Source: a virus. Taken from it: a stretch of DNA of 28,206 bases. The notes under the pieces are model-generated. The model saw nothing but the letters and a program-made list of their open reading frames with translations, did no database searches and had not been told where the DNA came from. The stretch lies in IMG/VR virus record IMGVR_UViG_3300048079_000038, positions 1 to 28,206 of that record; one strand, written 5' to 3'. Below are positions 14,509 to 23,668 of this stretch, piece after piece. Each line of letters starts with the position of its first letter. The first letter of the stretch is position 1. A program made the translations under genes and the position numbers.

Positions 14509-14892
14509 TCATGGGCGCTGCCCGTCTTTCAAGAGTTCAAGCCCTCTCTGCCTGCGGATCTCTCCTCCATCCTCGATGCAGCGGGGGCACACGGCGACGG
14601 TCTCCCCGCGCGCGCCCGGCTTCAGGATGGCGGTGATGATGACCCCCGGCTTCGAGTGGAGCGGGCAAACGAGCAGTACGCGGCCGGACCGCGAGGCCTC
14701 GAAGTCAGGCTTCCTTTGCTGAAGCGCGATCGTCCGCTCGAGGGCGAGGATCTCACGGCGCACAGCGCAGAGCTCGGCCACGCTCCTCCAGTACTCGGCA
14801 CTCCCGTATGTCACTTCCGGCATTCGCTGGTCGAGCCTGGCTTCCCGGAACTGCGCGTCGGCCAGCAGCTTCTCGTTCGCGGTCGTCTTCAC
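14509..14892 (-). CDS. Putative zinc-ribbon protein upstream of terminase
   Basis: 127 residues, GTG at 14892 with GGAG five bases upstream, overlapping the thioredoxin-fold gene stop by GTGA. The N-terminal half is a charged helix pair (EKLLADAQFREARLDQRM, AVRREILALERTIALQQR). The C-terminal half contains CPLH (76-79) and CPRC (102-105) separated by a beta-like stretch (GVIITAILKPG), a probable C-H-C-C zinc ribbon. The family is unknown to me. Zinc-ribbon proteins next to terminases sometimes help packaging or late transcription. Nothing in the sequence decides between these. Confidence 0.68.
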   Translation of the reverse strand: MKTTANEKLLADAQFREARLDQRMPEVTYGSAEYWRSVAELCAVRREILALERTIALQQRKPDFEASRSGRVLLVCPLHSKPGVIITAILKPGARGETVAVCPRCIEDGGEIRRQRGLELLKDGQRP

Positions 14893-15227
14893 GGTTTCTC
14901 CGTCGCCTCGAGGATCGCCTTCGCGAGGCGCTCGCCGAGGGCCTCCCTGGCGTAGGGGCCTATCCAGAACCCGCGGCGTTTCCCGCCCACGAAGAGTTGC
15001 GTCGTCGGCAGATCCTCTACCCCGTGGATGCCCACCGCAGTTGGATTCTCCAGACCGTCGATGGTGAAGAAGCGCGCCATGGCCACCATCTCCTCGGCCA
15101 CCGACTGGAACTCCGGCGCGAAGTGGTCGCATGGCACCGAGAGATGGCTGACGAACGCGACCACTACGGGGCGCTCGGAGTGGAGGAGGACGTGCATAAG
15201 GCCGAGGTCATTCAGCTCGAACGGCAT
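14889..15227 (-). CDS. Thioredoxin-fold protein with a single active-site cysteine
   Basis: 112 residues, ATG at 15227. The order is that of a thioredoxin: a strand RPVVVAFVSHL, then SVPCDHFAPEFQSVAEEM (equivalent to WCGPC-x-x-x-x-P), strand MARFFTIDGLENP, GVEDLPTTQLFVGGKR with the cis-proline region DLPTT, and a final helix REALGERLAKAILEA. The first active-site Cys and the Trp are replaced (S-V-P-C instead of C-x-x-C), leaving one Cys, so a two-cysteine dithiol cycle is not possible. It may be a monothiol enzyme or a structural partner. In phage T7 host thioredoxin is a polymerase processivity factor, but no polymerase partner is visible here. Confidence 0.78.
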   Translation of the reverse strand: MPFELNDLGLMHVLLHSERPVVVAFVSHLSVPCDHFAPEFQSVAEEMVAMARFFTIDGLENPTAVGIHGVEDLPTTQLFVGGKRRGFWIGPYAREALGERLAKAILEATEKP

Positions 15228-15230
15228 GGA

Positions 15231-15467
15231 TCAGGCTCCTTGCTCGGTCTGGACGGGGCACGTCTCCCCCGGCACGACGTTCTTCGCGTAGAGGCCCTTG
15301 TCGCCCCGCACCATCTCGAAATCAACGCGTTGACCGGCGAGGAGCGTGCGCCTGCCCTTCATGACGATCGCGCTGAAATGCACGAACACGTCCTGGTCGA
15401 CCCCGTTCGCCCGGATGAAGCCGAAGCCCTTCACGTTGTCGAAGAACTTCACCTGGCCCGCCTCCAT
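15231..15467 (-). CDS. Cold-shock domain protein
   Basis: 78 residues, ATG at 15467 after GGAGG. A complete cold-shock domain: KFFDNVKGFGFIRANG with RNP1 (KGFGFI), DVFVHFSAI with RNP2, and GQRVDFEMVRGDKGLYAKNV closing the barrel. It binds single-stranded nucleic acid and melts RNA structure. The C-terminal tail TCPVQTEQGA is extra to the usual 66-70 residues. One base separates it from the upstream gene and three from the thioredoxin-like gene, so it is in the same message as the replication genes. In a phage it may favour translation of structured viral mRNA or act at replication forks. The role is inferred. Confidence 0.93.
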   Translation of the reverse strand: MEAGQVKFFDNVKGFGFIRANGVDQDVFVHFSAIVMKGRRTLLAGQRVDFEMVRGDKGLYAKNVVPGETCPVQTEQGA

Positions 15468-15468
15468 C

Positions 15469-15999
15469 TCAATCCTCCTTCTCGCCGGCCGCGCGTCGCT
15501 GGGCGTCCACGCGGTCGGACACGTCTGGACGCGCGGCTACTGTTGGTGACTCGGCCCGCGGTTCTGTAGAGTCCTCTTCATCGCCAGCCCTTAGCACGAG
15601 TGCGCTGAGAACTTCGGGCTCGAACTTCACGCGCCTTTTTTCGACTTCCTGCTCAATGACGTAACGAGCATGGCACGGGCTCATCTCGCGGATCATCACC
15701 AAGGAACGTCCGATGTGCTCTTCTTGGGACATCGGTTCGTACTTCGTAGAGTTCGTGATGATCGGATAGCGCCTTTGCATCTCGGCCACCACCGTTCCTG
15801 GGGTCGGGAGTTTCCTTTCCTTCTGAGTGGCGATGAGGCTGTCGATGACCTGCCTGCATTGGTCGACGTTCAATCGGGCAATCAGTTTGTAGACCTCGTT
15901 CAGCCAGAGGCTGCGGAGATTGGCCTCTACTTCGTCCCAAGGTTTTCCCGTGATGACGGAGAGCCTCTTGGCCTCGGCGTCGAATTCGTGCCGGTACAT
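15469..15999 (-). CDS. Probable replication accessory protein, family unknown
   Basis: 176 residues. The ATG at 15999 was chosen over an upstream TTG because GGAGGTGAAT ends right before it. The protein is mostly helical: EFDAEAKRLSVITGKPWDEVEANL, LWLNEVYKLIARL, RQVIDSLIATQKERKLPTPGTVVAEMQRRYP, then a conserved-looking basic segment (CHARYVIEQEVEKRRVKF) and a disordered acidic tail. A pattern of helices followed by LPTPGTVVAEM is reminiscent of phage helicase loaders and replisome organisers. It follows the initiator-like gene with two bases between them, which supports a replication role. G+C content is visibly lower than in the virion genes. Confidence 0.65.
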   Translation of the reverse strand: MYRHEFDAEAKRLSVITGKPWDEVEANLRSLWLNEVYKLIARLNVDQCRQVIDSLIATQKERKLPTPGTVVAEMQRRYPIITNSTKYEPMSQEEHIGRSLVMIREMSPCHARYVIEQEVEKRRVKFEPEVLSALVLRAGDEEDSTEPRAESPTVAARPDVSDRVDAQRRAAGEKED

Positions 16000-16001
16000 A
16001 T

Positions 16002-16529
16002 TCACCTCCAATCCAGGAGAGGGTTGATCTCGCGCTTCTTGTGTATCCCGTCAGAGGGAGGTGGCCCGTCTTCTTTCCCTTCTTCTCCCTTCTTCCCTTT
16101 CTTGTTTGTGGTTAAGCGTGGGTTGGGCGTGGGTTGCTTGTGGGTTAGTTGTGGGTTGGTTTCCGGGTTGGCCGAGTCGCTGTAATTTCCTAGACGCTGA
16201 TAGAAGTCGTATTTGGGCACGGTATAAAGGGTATAGGTCTTGGTTGATTTACGGGTTAGAAATCCCGATCTCTCAAGGTGAGCGATCGAAGTCCTCATCC
16301 GCTGGACCGACAGCGCACAACTTGTCGCCAGCTCCTCCCTTGAGCGGACGAACTGGCCCCGCATGATGACGATCTCTTTCTTTCCGTCGAACCACTTCCT
16401 CTCCTTCCAGTTGGCCAGCGCGATGCAGGTGATGGCCACCTTGCAGTCGTCCGAGCGCATCATCCAAAGACTCGAGTTGAGAATCGCCCGCGCGACTAGA
16501 ACGGCTCCGTCTGGGATCTCTGCCGCCAC
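16002..16529 (-). CDS. Replication initiator-like protein (winged helix, O-type)
   Basis: 175 residues. The GTG at 16529 has GGAG about seven bases upstream. Longer starts would run into the operator region. Residues 8-40 (VLVARAILNSSLWMM ... VAITCIALANW) and 55-110 (VIMRGQFVRSREELATSCALSVQRMRTSIAHLERSGFLTRKST) form the winged-helix DNA-binding domain of phage O/replisome-organiser proteins, where the phrase G-Q-F-x-x-S-R-E-x-L-A is typical. Residues 120-145 are a low-complexity Asn/Pro/Gln/Thr linker whose DNA contains the iteron-like repeats described separately. A basic, acidic tail ends in INPLLDWR. The gene is first behind a strong promoter and operator candidate. Confidence 0.78.
   Translation of the reverse strand: MAAEIPDGAVLVARAILNSSLWMMRSDDCKVAITCIALANWKERKWFDGKKEIVIMRGQFVRSREELATSCALSVQRMRTSIAHLERSGFLTRKSTKTYTLYTVPKYDFYQRLGNYSDSANPETNPQLTHKQPTPNPRLTTNKKGKKGEEGKEDGPPPSDGIHKKREINPLLDWR
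16069..16170 (-). other. Candidate replication origin: iterons plus pyrimidine tract
   Basis: On the plus strand the 8-mer GTGGGTTG or a near match begins at 16108 (GTGGTTAA), 16118, 16129, 16140 and 16151, with a degenerate copy at 16163. The spacings are 10, 11, 11, 11 and 12 bases, about one helical turn, so the repeats face one side of the helix. Immediately adjacent is an uninterrupted 35-base pyrimidine tract (16069-16103). Both lie inside the initiator-like gene, as in lambda, where the origin iterons sit in gene O. The repeats also encode the protein linker, so coding low complexity is the alternative explanation. Confidence 0.55.
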
Positions 16530-16582: not shown

Positions 16583-16650
16583 TTTGGAGACAGCGCTTGA
16601 CACTGGCGGCGAGGTGGGGCGCGAAGCTCTCATGGGGCGCTGTCTCCAAA
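16583..16650. promoter_or_regulatory. 14-bp perfect inverted repeat, operator candidate
   Basis: TTTGGAGACAGCGC at 16583-16596 is exactly complementary to GCGCTGTCTCCAAA at 16637-16650, with 40 bases between the arms. The right arm covers the predicted transcription start of the promoter at 16655-16683. The left arm lies between it and the initiator start codon. Two identical sites in opposite orientation about five helical turns apart suggest cooperative repressor or regulator binding with looping. An RNA hairpin is possible but the 40-base loop is large. Confidence 0.65.
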
Positions 16651-16654
16651 GGCA

Positions 16655-16683
16655 AGAATACTCCGCAGATTCCCGTTTGTCAA
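16655..16683 (-). promoter_or_regulatory. Sigma70-type promoter for the replication operon
   Basis: On the minus strand TTGACA (16678-16683, a perfect -35 box) is followed by exactly 17 bases and TATTCT (16655-16660, four of six matches to TATAAT). The expected start falls near 16648-16650, in the first arm of the inverted repeat. The -35 box overlaps the ruvC stop codon. It would drive the initiator-like gene and those after it. It is the best promoter seen in the window. Confidence 0.75.
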
Positions 16684-19712: not shown

Positions 19713-20251
19713 CAGAGGCTCCTCTTCTCCGGCTCGACATAGAGCATCCCCGCAAGGCGGAACACTTCGCCTTCCTCGGGCGTGCTGATCGGGTCGCCGA
19801 CTGGCTGGCCGTCGGCGAGCCGATAGCACTTCCCGCCATCCGAGCAGTAGCCTTGCGTGCGGAGCTGGGTCACGACGTGCCGCGAGAAGTCGGCCGAGCC
19901 GGTCCGGATGAGATGGATCAGCCCGAAGTTCTCTGCCGTGGCCGTGAAGAGGTCCGCTGTCACCCCGTCGATGAGCGCCTGCCTGTACTTCTCGCCGCGC
20001 TTGACGTACTGCGGCTCCATGGCGTCGAGCGTCTCCCAAAGCGCGTTTCGCTTACTCGTCTGACCGACAAACAGCTCTGGCACGGGAAGCATTCGCGGGA
20101 TGGCGACGATCTCGATGTCGCCCACCATCGCGCACCGCCGCCGGATGCTGCCCGCAACCTCGATCCTTTCGCAGCTTGAGCGGAGGCTCTCGATGAGCGC
20201 GAGGGCCTTCGCCTCCATCTCGGCGAGCGGGCGTTTCGGGGAGGTGCTCAT
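19712..20251 (-). CDS. Stand-alone DNA polymerase X palm / nucleotidyltransferase
   Basis: 179 residues, ATG at 20251 overlapping the C5 methyltransferase stop by ATGA. It is the catalytic module of family X polymerases: VAGSIRRRCAMVGDIEIV (32-49) holds GSIRR and metal ligands D45 and E47, TADLFTATAENFG (98-110) gives the third, D100, and RTGSADFSRHVVTQLRTQGY with STPEEGEVFRLAGMLYVEP (157-174) is the thumb-side end usual in PolX. The N-terminal 8-kDa HhH domain and the C-terminal PHP exonuclease of bacterial PolX are absent, so DNA must be gripped another way. All three carboxylates are kept, so it is likely active for gap filling, end addition or nucleotide transfer. Confidence 0.85.
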   Translation of the reverse strand: MSTSPKRPLAEMEAKALALIESLRSSCERIEVAGSIRRRCAMVGDIEIVAIPRMLPVPELFVGQTSKRNALWETLDAMEPQYVKRGEKYRQALIDGVTADLFTATAENFGLIHLIRTGSADFSRHVVTQLRTQGYCSDGGKCYRLADGQPVGDPISTPEEGEVFRLAGMLYVEPEKRSL

Positions 20252-21984
20252 GGGTTCTCCAGGATCGCCTTCACGAGCGCCTTCGCCGTGTTCACCTCGA
20301 CGGCGTTCCCGATCATCTTCACGCGGTCCTTCTTCGTCCCTTTGAACTCGTAGCCCTCAAAGCCCATCGCGCGGGCGAGTTCGTGGGGCTCGAGCATCCG
20401 GAAGAGGATGTCGATCAGGACCTGCTGCGGAGCGACGTTCGCCTGCGGTTCGACGAGACCGAGTCGTTCTACGGACGTAACCGTGGGCAAGGGCTTGTCG
20501 ATCGCGGCTGCCTTGGCCGTGCCGTTGTACTTGACGAGGAATGGCTCGACGAGAGCGTGGGAACGCTCTGTGGTGATCGTGCCCAGCGGCTCGCGGACGC
20601 TGTGCACTCGGCCGCTGTTGTTGCGCTTCCTGCTCGTGCCGTGGTTCACCTGCGTGATGAAGGGTTCGACGAGATGACCTCCGCCCCTGCTCGCCAGGAT
20701 CGTCGGCATCGGTTGATCCACCGAACGGGGCGCGTTCCCGCGGCCGATGCCGAGAGGCGCGAGAATGAACGGCTGCACGATGGCCTGCGCGCCCTTGCTG
20801 GCGATCGAGGGGAGCGGCTCTTTCGTGGAACGCGGAGCGCCGCCGCTCTGTTGCTGGAGGATGAACGGCTCCACCACGGCAAAGCGTTCGTGGCAGAGCA
20901 CGGTCGGGAGTGGCTCCTTGACGGAGCGCCCCTTCCCCATGTCGGCCCCGCCGGGGGTGATGATGAACGGCTCCACGAGAGCGATGCTCGGTTGCGTGAT
21001 GATCGTGGCGACTGGATCGTTTACCGATCTCGCTCCTCCTGGACCGCGCGACTTCTGGTCGATGGGCACCATGAAGGGCTCGACAAGGCCCGCATGGATG
21101 CCGCCAGCCGTCACCGTAGGAAGCGGTTCTTTGACCGAGTGGGCGCTCCCATTCACCTGCGACGCCTGCGTTCCGCGGAGCAGCACAAGGAAGGGCTCTG
21201 CCGCCGCGCCGCCGAACTTCCGCAACCCCGCTTCGATGCGTGCGAGCGTGTTCCGCGCGAGCGGCTTCTTCCGGTTGAAGATGCTTTTGCCCCTCCGCGA
21301 CCAGTCGATGATCTCGCGCGCCCCGCGCCAGGGCTTGAGGCCCCTGAAAAGGTCGCCCGTCTTTTCCGCTTCCTTGGAGTGGCTCGGCTCCGGCCAGGTG
21401 ACTCTATGGTTGCCGCGCCGCGCGATGAGGAAGAACCTCTGCCGCGTCGTGGCGCCTCCGAAGTCGGCGGCGTTCAGGATGCGGTGCTCCAGGCGATACC
21501 CGCACTTCCTGATCGCATCCGTCCACGCGCGGAAGATCTCGCCCTTCTTAGACTTGAGCGGGCAGCCATCGGCACCCAGCGGCCCCCACTCCATGATCTC
21601 CCGGACGTTCTCGACGAGGATGGTTTCGATGTAGAGTTCCTGGGCCCACTTGACCACGTCCCATCCGGTGGCGCGCGACTGATCGTTCATCGGACGGCCG
21701 CCGCGCGCGTTGGCGTGGTTCGTGCATTCAGGCGAGGCAATCAGGATCTTCATCCTGCCTTCTGGCACGAGCTTTCGCGGATCGAGTTGATCGACACGCG
21801 AGCAGTGATGCTCGGCCCACGGGTGATTCACGCGGTGGACGTCGACCGCAGCCTTCCAGTGGTTGATCGCGATGAGGCGGATGTTCCTGATCCCGAGGTC
21901 CTCGCACGCGAGCGCGAAGCCTTTCGAGAAGCCGCCCCCGCCGCAGAAGAGATCAGCGGCGACCAATTTCCGCGCGGCGCCCAT
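20248..21984 (-). CDS. C5 cytosine DNA methyltransferase with seven-fold repeat insert
   Basis: 578 residues. The ATG at 21984 is preferred to the GTG just before it because GGAG then lies at usable distance and the stop/start share one base. Motif I DLFCGGGGFSKGF (11-23), motif IV SPECTNH with catalytic C87 (SPEC rather than the usual PC-Q), motif VI VENV (124-127), motif VIII RQRFFLIARR (181-190), and the C-terminal MIGNAVEVNTAKAL (557-570) as motif X. Between VIII and X, residues about 262-513 hold seven diverged copies of a 32-41-residue unit, S-V-x-x-P-L-P-T followed by LVEPF, in the target-recognition region. It likely protects phage DNA from restriction. Confidence 0.9.
   Translation of the reverse strand: MGAARKLVAADLFCGGGGFSKGFALACEDLGIRNIRLIAINHWKAAVDVHRVNHPWAEHHCSRVDQLDPRKLVPEGRMKILIASPECTNHANARGGRPMNDQSRATGWDVVKWAQELYIETILVENVREIMEWGPLGADGCPLKSKKGEIFRAWTDAIRKCGYRLEHRILNAADFGGATTRQRFFLIARRGNHRVTWPEPSHSKEAEKTGDLFRGLKPWRGAREIIDWSRRGKSIFNRKKPLARNTLARIEAGLRKFGGAAAEPFLVLLRGTQASQVNGSAHSVKEPLPTVTAGGIHAGLVEPFMVPIDQKSRGPGGARSVNDPVATIITQPSIALVEPFIITPGGADMGKGRSVKEPLPTVLCHERFAVVEPFILQQQSGGAPRSTKEPLPSIASKGAQAIVQPFILAPLGIGRGNAPRSVDQPMPTILASRGGGHLVEPFITQVNHGTSRKRNNSGRVHSVREPLGTITTERSHALVEPFLVKYNGTAKAAAIDKPLPTVTSVERLGLVEPQANVAPQQVLIDILFRMLEPHELARAMGFEGYEFKGTKKDRVKMIGNAVEVNTAKALVKAILENP
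20446..21201 (-). repeat. Seven tandem degenerate repeats in the methyltransferase TRD
   Basis: The unit is (H/R)S-V-x-x-P-L-P-T-(V/I)-T, about ten variable residues, then (L/V)VEPF and a variable linker. The first six P-L-P-T-type segments start at about residues 283, 320, 354, 386, 421 and 462, and the seventh (AIDKPLPT) at 494. The variable linkers between units differ in length (32-41 residue period) and in charge. The nucleotide sequences have diverged far more than the protein core, so the repeats are old and under selection. Confidence 0.85.
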
Positions 21985-22196
21985 CACTCTCCAGCCTCTT
22001 TCGCGTCGTGGCGCATCGCCTCGTTCCTGAAGCGCCGCAGACTCCAGAGCAGAGTCCTCATGCTCTCCTCCGTGTCGAAATACCTGGCGAGACGGCGGAT
22101 CACCGCGCGGTACATCGGCACGGTGAAGCCGGGGTCATGGCTGTTCAGGGCACTCCTGATCGCCCACAGCTCCTTCGCCACATCGAAGCGTCCCAT
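21984..22196 (-). CDS. Small helical protein between the two methyltransferases
   Basis: 70 residues, ATG at 22196 sharing one base with the upstream methyltransferase stop (TGATG), and its own stop sharing one with the next start. Predicted to be all helical: FDVAKELWAIRSALNSHD, PMYRAVIRRLARYFDTEESM, and TLLWSLRRFRNEAMRHDAKE. Basic and aromatic residues alternate as in small helical-bundle nucleic-acid or protein adaptors. Not recognised. Its constant coupling to both methyltransferases suggests an accessory role. Confidence 0.62.
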   Translation of the reverse strand: MGRFDVAKELWAIRSALNSHDPGFTVPMYRAVIRRLARYFDTEESMRTLLWSLRRFRNEAMRHDAKEAGE

Positions 22197-23668
22197 CAGA
22201 CGAGCCTCCCCTGCTGGAGTTCGGGGGCGATCCTCTTCATGGCCATGTCAGCGTACTCGCCGTTGATCTCGATGCCGATGAAGTGGCGCCCGGCCTTGAG
22301 CCCAACGAGGGCGGTCGTGCCGGCGCCCATGAACGGATCGAGCACTACCGCGGGCGTGGGGGGGGGCGAGTCCTTGTTGGCGCAGGCGCGGTCAAAGCCC
22401 TTGTCGATCGACGGGTTGGCGTCCTTCCAATCCTGCCACGCTTGGCCCGCGAGACCTGCGGTCCTGTCGCCGAGCCCGTCCCGCGCCTTGCCGTTCACGC
22501 GCCGGGGCCCGTGCGGACAGGAGGCCTCGAATCCGCGGCTCTCATAATCGGCCGCCACCCGTGGGTGCTCCTGCATCGCCGAGCCATATCTGCCGCTCAA
22601 GGTCTCGTCCAGTTCTCCGGAGTGGTTGCGGCCCTCGTTCTCCTTGAGCAGCTTGGCGTAGGCCGAGCTCGGCTGGACGATGCGAACGAACGGCGCCCCG
22701 CAGGTCCCGCAGCAGCCGCGCTCGCTCGTGCCAGCGAGGATGCAACGCTCGACGAGTTCCTGCGGGAAGGTGGCGAAGTGCGTCAGCCATCGGTCCTTCG
22801 CACCGCAGGGGCAGGCCTCCGGACGTCGATCGAAGTACCGCCGGCAGGCCCGGCAGTAATCGGAGGTGAACTGCTCGGTCGGCATCCACCAGACGCTCCG
22901 GGCGTTCCGGGTGCCCTTGAGGGCGAGGGCCTGGCGCGCGGCCGCCGATCTGACGGCGCCGGATGCCCCCGGAGGCGCGTCACCAGGTGGCGCACCGTGC
23001 TCTCGATCGCGGTGGAGGTTGTAGGTCGCCCGCGCCCCGGCCGTCTGATCCAGGAGGCGCCGGGTGCGCTCCTGCTCCTCCTGGGGCTCCGCGATCGCCC
23101 AGTGGTCGTAGAAGTACCGTTCGTCTTTTGCGAACTGGAAGATATACTCGTGGGCTTTCGTGGGTCTGTCCCGGACGCTCTCCGGCATCACGTTCTTCTT
23201 CGCCCAGATGACATCCATGCGGAGGATCCAGCCGTCCTCCTGGAGGGCGAAGGCGACGCGCCACGGCATCCCCATGAGGTTCTTCGGGCGGAGGCCCGTC
23301 TTCGCCGACTCGCGCACGCGGACCTGCCGGCACTCCGCTTGGTTGTAGCGCGTGCCCTCAAGGGTGGACTTGAGGTCCTGTCCGCGGCCGCCGTCGACGT
23401 AGGAGTCTCCGAGGTTGATCCAGCAGGTGCCGTCGCTCCGGAGGACGCGCCGGACCTCGCGGAAGACCTGGACGAGGCGGTCGACGTACTCGCCCACCGA
23501 GGCCTCGAGGCCGATCTGCTTCGCCTCGTCGGGGTGGCCGGCGTCGAGGTAGCGCCGGAGCCCCCAGTATGGAGGACTCGTTACGCAGCAGTGGACCGAC
23601 TCGTCGGGCAGCTCCCGGAGCCGCTCGAGCGCGTCGCCCACGAGGATCTCGTTGATGGGGATGTTCAC
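22196..23668 (-). CDS. Beta-class N4-cytosine/N6-adenine DNA methyltransferase
   Basis: 490 residues, GTG at 23668 overlapping the SMC-like stop by GTGA. Motif IV TSPPYWGLR (30-38) comes first and the AdoMet motif DPFMGAGTTALVGLKAGRHFIGIEIN (about 444-469) last, the order of the beta class. SPPY is commonest in N4-cytosine enzymes but also found in N6-adenine ones. Near residues 285-345 an insert carries CRAC, CPCG and CCGTCG, likely a zinc module in the recognition domain, which makes this protein larger than the usual 270-350. GLRPKNLMGMPWRVAFAL and WAKKNVMPESVRDRPTKAHEYIF are conserved segments of such phage enzymes. It presumably protects phage DNA. Confidence 0.9.
   Translation of the reverse strand: MNIPINEILVGDALERLRELPDESVHCCVTSPPYWGLRRYLDAGHPDEAKQIGLEASVGEYVDRLVQVFREVRRVLRSDGTCWINLGDSYVDGGRGQDLKSTLEGTRYNQAECRQVRVRESAKTGLRPKNLMGMPWRVAFALQEDGWILRMDVIWAKKNVMPESVRDRPTKAHEYIFQFAKDERYFYDHWAIAEPQEEQERTRRLLDQTAGARATYNLHRDREHGAPPGDAPPGASGAVRSAAARQALALKGTRNARSVWWMPTEQFTSDYCRACRRYFDRRPEACPCGAKDRWLTHFATFPQELVERCILAGTSERGCCGTCGAPFVRIVQPSSAYAKLLKENEGRNHSGELDETLSGRYGSAMQEHPRVAADYESRGFEASCPHGPRRVNGKARDGLGDRTAGLAGQAWQDWKDANPSIDKGFDRACANKDSPPPTPAVVLDPFMGAGTTALVGLKAGRHFIGIEINGEYADMAMKRIAPELQQGRLV

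Follow-up and report, generated by a model that had tools for sequence, protein, structure and literature searches.

A probable replication origin of 11-bp iterons within the gene of its own winged-helix initiator

Origins that lie inside the initiator gene have been described in the phages TP901-1, Tuc2009, SPP1 and lambda (PMC8965321, PMC5499656, PMC3985674, PMC7466680). The replisome organizers of TP901-1 (ORF13) and Tuc2009 (Rep2009) bind direct repeats in their own genes, and it has been demonstrated that these repeats form the phage origin (PMC8965321). For SPP1 (G38P/oriL) an origin embedded in the initiator gene has likewise been shown, and for ORF20 of the staphylococcal phage 80alpha, which carries an annotated rep_origin, one has been proposed (PMC5499656). 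In lambda the iterons are 19 bp long, each is an inverted repeat, and they are bound by O dimers (PMC3985674, PMC7466680). Few environmental phages have a known origin.

Here we analyse a 28,206-base stretch of a virus record (the window; G+C about 65%), in which terminase, protease/capsid and replication genes are recognised, all of them on one strand. Within it we see a segment that we take, with good confidence, for an iteron-type replication origin lying inside the gene that encodes its initiator. A sequence-only reading of this DNA had likened the layout to the lambda origin in gene O, and in part the likeness stands: as in lambda and the lambdoid Stx phages, the iterons are placed midway along the initiator gene and flanked on one side by an asymmetric stretch, here a proposed unwinding element. 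However, the iterons of the window are 11 bp, direct and one per helical turn in place of the 19-bp lambda type, no P-like loader is recognised in the window, and a C-terminal domain is missing from the initiator. The lambda origin proper is ruled out by the length and type of the iterons, which are not inverted repeats of 18–19 bp. TP901-1, Tuc2009 and 80alpha were also tried as controls for the 11-bp period and rejected, as their top lags are 15 (TP901-1), 5, 10 and 15 (Tuc2009) and 30 and 15 (80alpha), unlike the 11 of the window, and the 11-bp rule is thus not general to such origins. The DnaD-like/O-like initiators of Listeria LP040, Bacillus Palmer, Enterococcus EH-TP1 and Pseudoalteromonas HS2 (PHROG 2514) have a homologous winged helix and an array of 11-bp period at the same position, but differ in iteron sequence and in a longer C-terminal part that is missing from the window protein.

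The initiator gene and the repeats in its linker codons

The initiator gene (16002–16529, minus strand; 175 aa) begins at a GTG codon preceded by a GGAG-type ribosome site and encodes a winged helix followed by a disordered linker. The DNA-binding domain spans residues 8–112 (16194–16508, minus strand) in an AlphaFold2 model that has the element order of a winged helix-turn-helix (wHTH), with block means of about 94–98 over residues 21–110 and a disordered tail. The protein matches phrog_2514, a DnaD-like helicase loader, with E 9.4e-20 over profile positions 4–147 of 270, and the O-like phrog_345 with E 9e-6, so that profile and model together uphold the description of the gene as initiator-like. 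The phrog_2514 match covers the N-terminal winged helix; the C-terminal DnaD-like part is absent, the protein stopping 64 residues past the winged helix, all of them predicted to be disordered, and neither a DnaD-type nor an O-type C-terminal domain is present. Where structural matches in the viral library carry a name, it is most often 'replisome organizer', and a fold search of the PDB returned generic winged-helix matches only (best E 2.7e-3).

The next gene (15469–15999, minus strand), whose Shine-Dalgarno sequence overlaps the initiator stop, is by its position a candidate helicase loader. No homologue of its product was detected in the PHROG profiles and collections searched, and its model is helical but of low confidence, a poor and unreliable prediction. 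No helicase was found in the window with the DnaB of a relative as query, and a recognisable loader is likewise absent there.

The repeats lie in the codons of the disordered linker that follows the winged helix, where the sequence-only reading had placed them. On the plus strand GTGGGTT occurs at 16118, 16129, 16140 and 16151; three of these four copies belong to a full GTGGGTTG, and the copy at 16140 reads GTGGGTTA. On the coding strand the tail codons run ...AACCCGGAAACC AACCCAC AACT AACCCAC AAGC AACCCAC GCCC AACCCAC GCTT AACCACA AACAAG..., giving four exact AACCCAC iterons on the minus strand (copies 1 to 4 at 16151–16157, 16140–16146, 16129–16135 and 16118–16124) and a fifth, variant copy, AACCACA (TGTGGTT on the plus strand, one change; 16107–16113), which keeps the 11-bp register and lies at the edge of the purine tract described below. 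A degenerate outer iteron, AACCCGG (CCGGGTT on the plus strand; 16163–16169, minus strand), stands 12 bp from its neighbour. The proposed count of at least five repeats is therefore reached only when variants are included, and the spacing of 10–11 bases given for them needs correction, since the step between the four exact units and the variant fifth is exactly 11 bp.

This step carries the five units through frames 0, 2, 1, 0 and 2, where they contribute to the peptides NPQ, LTH, KQPT, NPR and LTT, and because it crosses all three frames the repeat is one of DNA and not of peptide. For a three-unit pattern allowing at most 3 mismatches, chance predicts 0.01 occurrences per window; three were found, all within the array. 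Over lags of 5–60 the strongest repeat signal of the whole window is the lag-11 identity peak of 0.82 over 33 nt at this position; the next lag-11 site in the window reaches 0.55, and 60 Markov-simulated windows of 28 kb reached 0.70 at most. The nine next-best periodicities of the window are all multiples of 3, as expected of peptide repeats, whereas the period of the array is not.

Next to the array is a purine tract (16069–16103, minus strand; pyrimidine on the plus strand), the proposed unwinding or strand-asymmetric element. Its length is exactly the 35 nt first reported for it, and it is the sole purine/pyrimidine run of at least 20 nt in the 28-kb window. Its G+C content of 50%, against about 65% for the window, sets it apart from the classic AT-rich type of unwinding element. 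The corresponding stretch in relatives is AT- and purine-rich, the coding strand past the array having an AT fraction of 0.75 against 0.62 gene-wide and a purine fraction of 0.73 against 0.60. A turn in cumulative GC skew, suggested as a check on an origin near 16.1 kb, was not observed; the skew falls through this position, which, with the recognised genes of the fragment on one strand, says little for or against an origin.

Conservation of the period and covariation with the winged helix

A pattern search of viral contigs with the single protein gave no close relatives. Relatives were collected by an alignment-based scan of viral contigs, by more scans with fetched relatives and by one genome scan, which yielded 278 initiator genes with a linker, or 176 when made non-redundant; this set includes the reference phages and five contigs found by DNA pattern, and nearly all of its members were found by protein and not by their repeats. 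Downstream of the YQ motif at the end of the winged helix, the best repeat period is lag 11 in 126 of the 176 genes and lag 22 in 15 more, in a set where similar linkers were possibly favoured, as the patterns include the winged-helix end and the tblastn scores reach into the linker. Lag-11 identity exceeds that of protein-keeping codon shuffles at p<0.05 in 155/176, a null that meets this bias at the DNA level only, and its mean is 0.77 against 0.56 for synonymous-codon permutation within the gene and 0.39 for the winged-helix region. The arrays start a median of 23 nt past the winged-helix end. The window has the same arrangement, with its array 3' of the YQ motif, a period of 11 and, after it, a tract that is purine-rich and not AT-rich. 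Per-array copy counts were rejected; they gave spurious spacings of 7–8 bp, probably sub-repeats inside AACAAAC units.

The unit itself varies among phages (AACAAACAACT, AACAAAGAGCT, GACAAGCAAAC, GGCAAACAAAG and AACCCACNNNN), and the closest relative (L034), with a protein about 60% identical, has a different unit of AACAGG type and keeps the 11-bp layout. It had been argued that the origin proposal would fail if relatives kept the protein linker and lost the DNA repeats; we see the opposite, in that the peptide of these Asn/Gln/Thr-rich linkers changes while the 11-bp array stays.

To relate the unit to the protein, 139 arrays picked for clear repeats were used, their consensus units aligned by rotation without regard to the protein, and mutual information was computed against every column of the winged helix. 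The highest-ranking pair joined residue 76 and iteron position 0 (Z 13.7). In the window protein this residue is Gln76 (codon 16302–16304, minus strand), the second residue of the recognition helix (75–88). As the rotation alignment had misplaced several arrays (those of the window, L016, L021 and L030), the analysis was redone with a register-free test, in which AAC occurs in the unit of 76/76 Gln76 genes, GAC in 27/28 Arg76 genes against 9/76 with Gln76 (p 4e-16), and GGC in 9/11 Lys76 genes against 2/76 with Gln76 (p 6e-9). For GAC residue 76 is the best column of all, with Z 19.6 and the next at 4.9. The codes for Met, Asn, Ser, Asp and Gly at this position rest on few genes, and one relative with AACCCAC units (L013) is an exception in having Glu there.

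When this part of the recognition helix was left out in building a tree, the class of residue 76 changed at least 26 times along it. Well-supported branches alone provide 6 independent pairs, too few for significance, and for this reason 37 disjoint pairs of nearest relatives differing at residue 76, mostly 46–70% identical elsewhere, were used together with within-cluster shuffles. The iteron switches in the concordant direction in 31 of these pairs, in the opposite direction in none, and not at all in 6. The residue-76 rule is correct for 100/115 genes, compared with 74/115 for the nearest relative and a maximum of 76 in the within-cluster shuffles.

A second residue goes with the base that follows. 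Among Gln76 genes, AACC is present in 23/24 with Arg64 and in 10/52 without it (p 1e-10); helix 2 of the HTH begins with Arg64 (codon 16338–16340, minus strand). The window protein has both Gln76 and Arg64, and its units begin with AACC, as predicted by 22/23 other Gln76/Arg64 genes. The initiator also has a weak profile match to GntR/FadR, in which Gln76 aligns with FadR Thr46, a specific base contact (PMC4494728 Table 1), and the pairings of Gln with A, Arg with G and Lys with G are listed among typical ones in the same source (PMC4494728), although sites of the FadR family are palindromic and those of the window are direct repeats.

In a protein-blind scan of viral contigs, the pattern AACCCAC-N4-AACCCAC-N4-AACCCAC was found in 21 contigs, with the array inside an initiator gene in 12, of which 5 belong to the family of the window initiator and 7 encode a different protein; in the other 9 it falls in short or unrelated frames. 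The seven (L014, L015, L018, L019, L020, L025 and L032) carry the AACCCAC 11-bp array in a linker as well (L014:1605-1633), and the examples tested match phrog_9474 (replication initiation) weakly, which makes them a candidate second initiator family with the 11-bp layout, or else a case of convergent iterons. Four related contigs (L017:521-549, L022, L024 and L027) have three AACCCACCAAT-type units in 11-bp steps at the end of an 86-aa frame, which, as tested for L017, matches no PHROG.

Function of the array

The presence of the array at the DNA level, the conservation of its 11-bp period and its covariation with DNA-contact residues are directly supported by these data. The expectation that the initiator binds the repeats gains from the last of these, in that the bases of the repeats go with the residues by which the protein contacts DNA, and on this comparative evidence the product of the gene very probably binds the array that the gene contains. 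Such binding might instead serve an intragenic operator, with the initiator limiting its own expression by roadblock or looping and the origin situated elsewhere. Covariation of protein and iteron alone cannot tell an origin from an operator, and self-regulation is common among the Rep proteins of iteron plasmids. We nevertheless regard an operator as unlikely, since about 490 bp separate the array from the only promoter-like site, which is upstream of it, the window has no second lag-11 array, and in the initiator family an asymmetric AT/purine-rich stretch comes after the array. Furthermore, phage arrays at such a position that were tested experimentally are origins (PMC8965321). The promoter-like site, TTGACA-17-TATTCT (16655–16683, minus strand), has 10 of 12 matches where 0.6 such sites are expected, and is thus a consensus match only; it points, from 16683 to 16655, through the initiator gene and the array, and if it is used transcription would cross the array, as in lambda.

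That the array is instead a partition or incompatibility (centromere-like) site of the winged-helix protein seems very improbable to us. Winged-helix centromere binders do exist, and two of them, AspA and the pNOB8 centromere protein, are among the weak structural matches of the initiator, but the search next to the gene turned up no partition ATPase, annotations of the family read helicase loader or replisome organizer, and its members adjoin DnaB, DnaC, P or annealing genes. We attach hardly any credence to repeats that have no DNA function and are a by-product, through protein-level selection or slippage, of a low-complexity Asn/Thr/Pro/Gln linker: disorder of the linker in the model and the composition of the relatives' linkers would suit it, but 11 bp is not a multiple of 3, peptide-keeping codon shuffles lose the period, the period is constant across differing peptides, and the iteron bases track residues of the recognition helix. 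As a peptide repeat the array is statistically refuted by the period and the shuffles.

From binding site to origin the step rests on the precedent of TP901-1, Tuc2009, SPP1 and lambda, together with the conserved asymmetric stretch beside the array, and from these we infer that the array is used as an origin. In the origin that we propose, winged-helix initiator molecules would sit on the 11-bp units, one per helical turn and nearly on the same face of the DNA, with helix 3 (Gln76) reading AAC and helix 2 (Arg64) going with the following C. The packed array may then help to open the adjacent purine/pyrimidine tract, at which the replicative helicase would be loaded, probably through a partner protein since the initiator is without a C-terminal domain. 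Protein binding, the site of unwinding and helicase recruitment are steps that we infer.

We also think it likely, with somewhat less assurance than for the origin of the window, that these genes represent a large and widespread class of phage origins with one-turn 11-bp iterons carried by the codons for the linker of a winged-helix initiator. As part of this proposal a two-residue code would partly give the origin sequence, Gln, Arg or Lys at residue 76 specifying AAC, GAC or GGC and Arg at residue 64 the following C, and, as protein and binding site are inherited or exchanged together, new replication specificities would arise within a single gene. An earlier description of the 11-bp array or of the two-residue code was not found in the open-access papers searched. 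If the proposal holds, sequence alone would suffice to find the origin of any phage with an initiator of this family, and two residues to predict part of its iteron; the locus would also offer a clean case of one DNA stretch under two codes, peptide linker and binding array, and of co-evolution between a protein and a site that its own gene contains.

Other features of the window may be mentioned. A perfect 14-nt inverted repeat, TTTGGAGACAGCGC, with arms at 16583–16596 and 16637–16650 (40 nt apart), lies upstream of the initiator start and just downstream of the promoter-like site, and may act as paired repressor sites or as a hairpin in the leader. Thioredoxin-like and cold-shock-domain genes (14889–15227 and 15231–15467) are found in the replication cluster, just past the initiator operon. 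Two DNA methyltransferases, of C5 and N4/N6 type (20248–21987 and 22196–23668), far exceed the length of their profiles, with internal extra segments of about 250–290 residues between the conserved parts.
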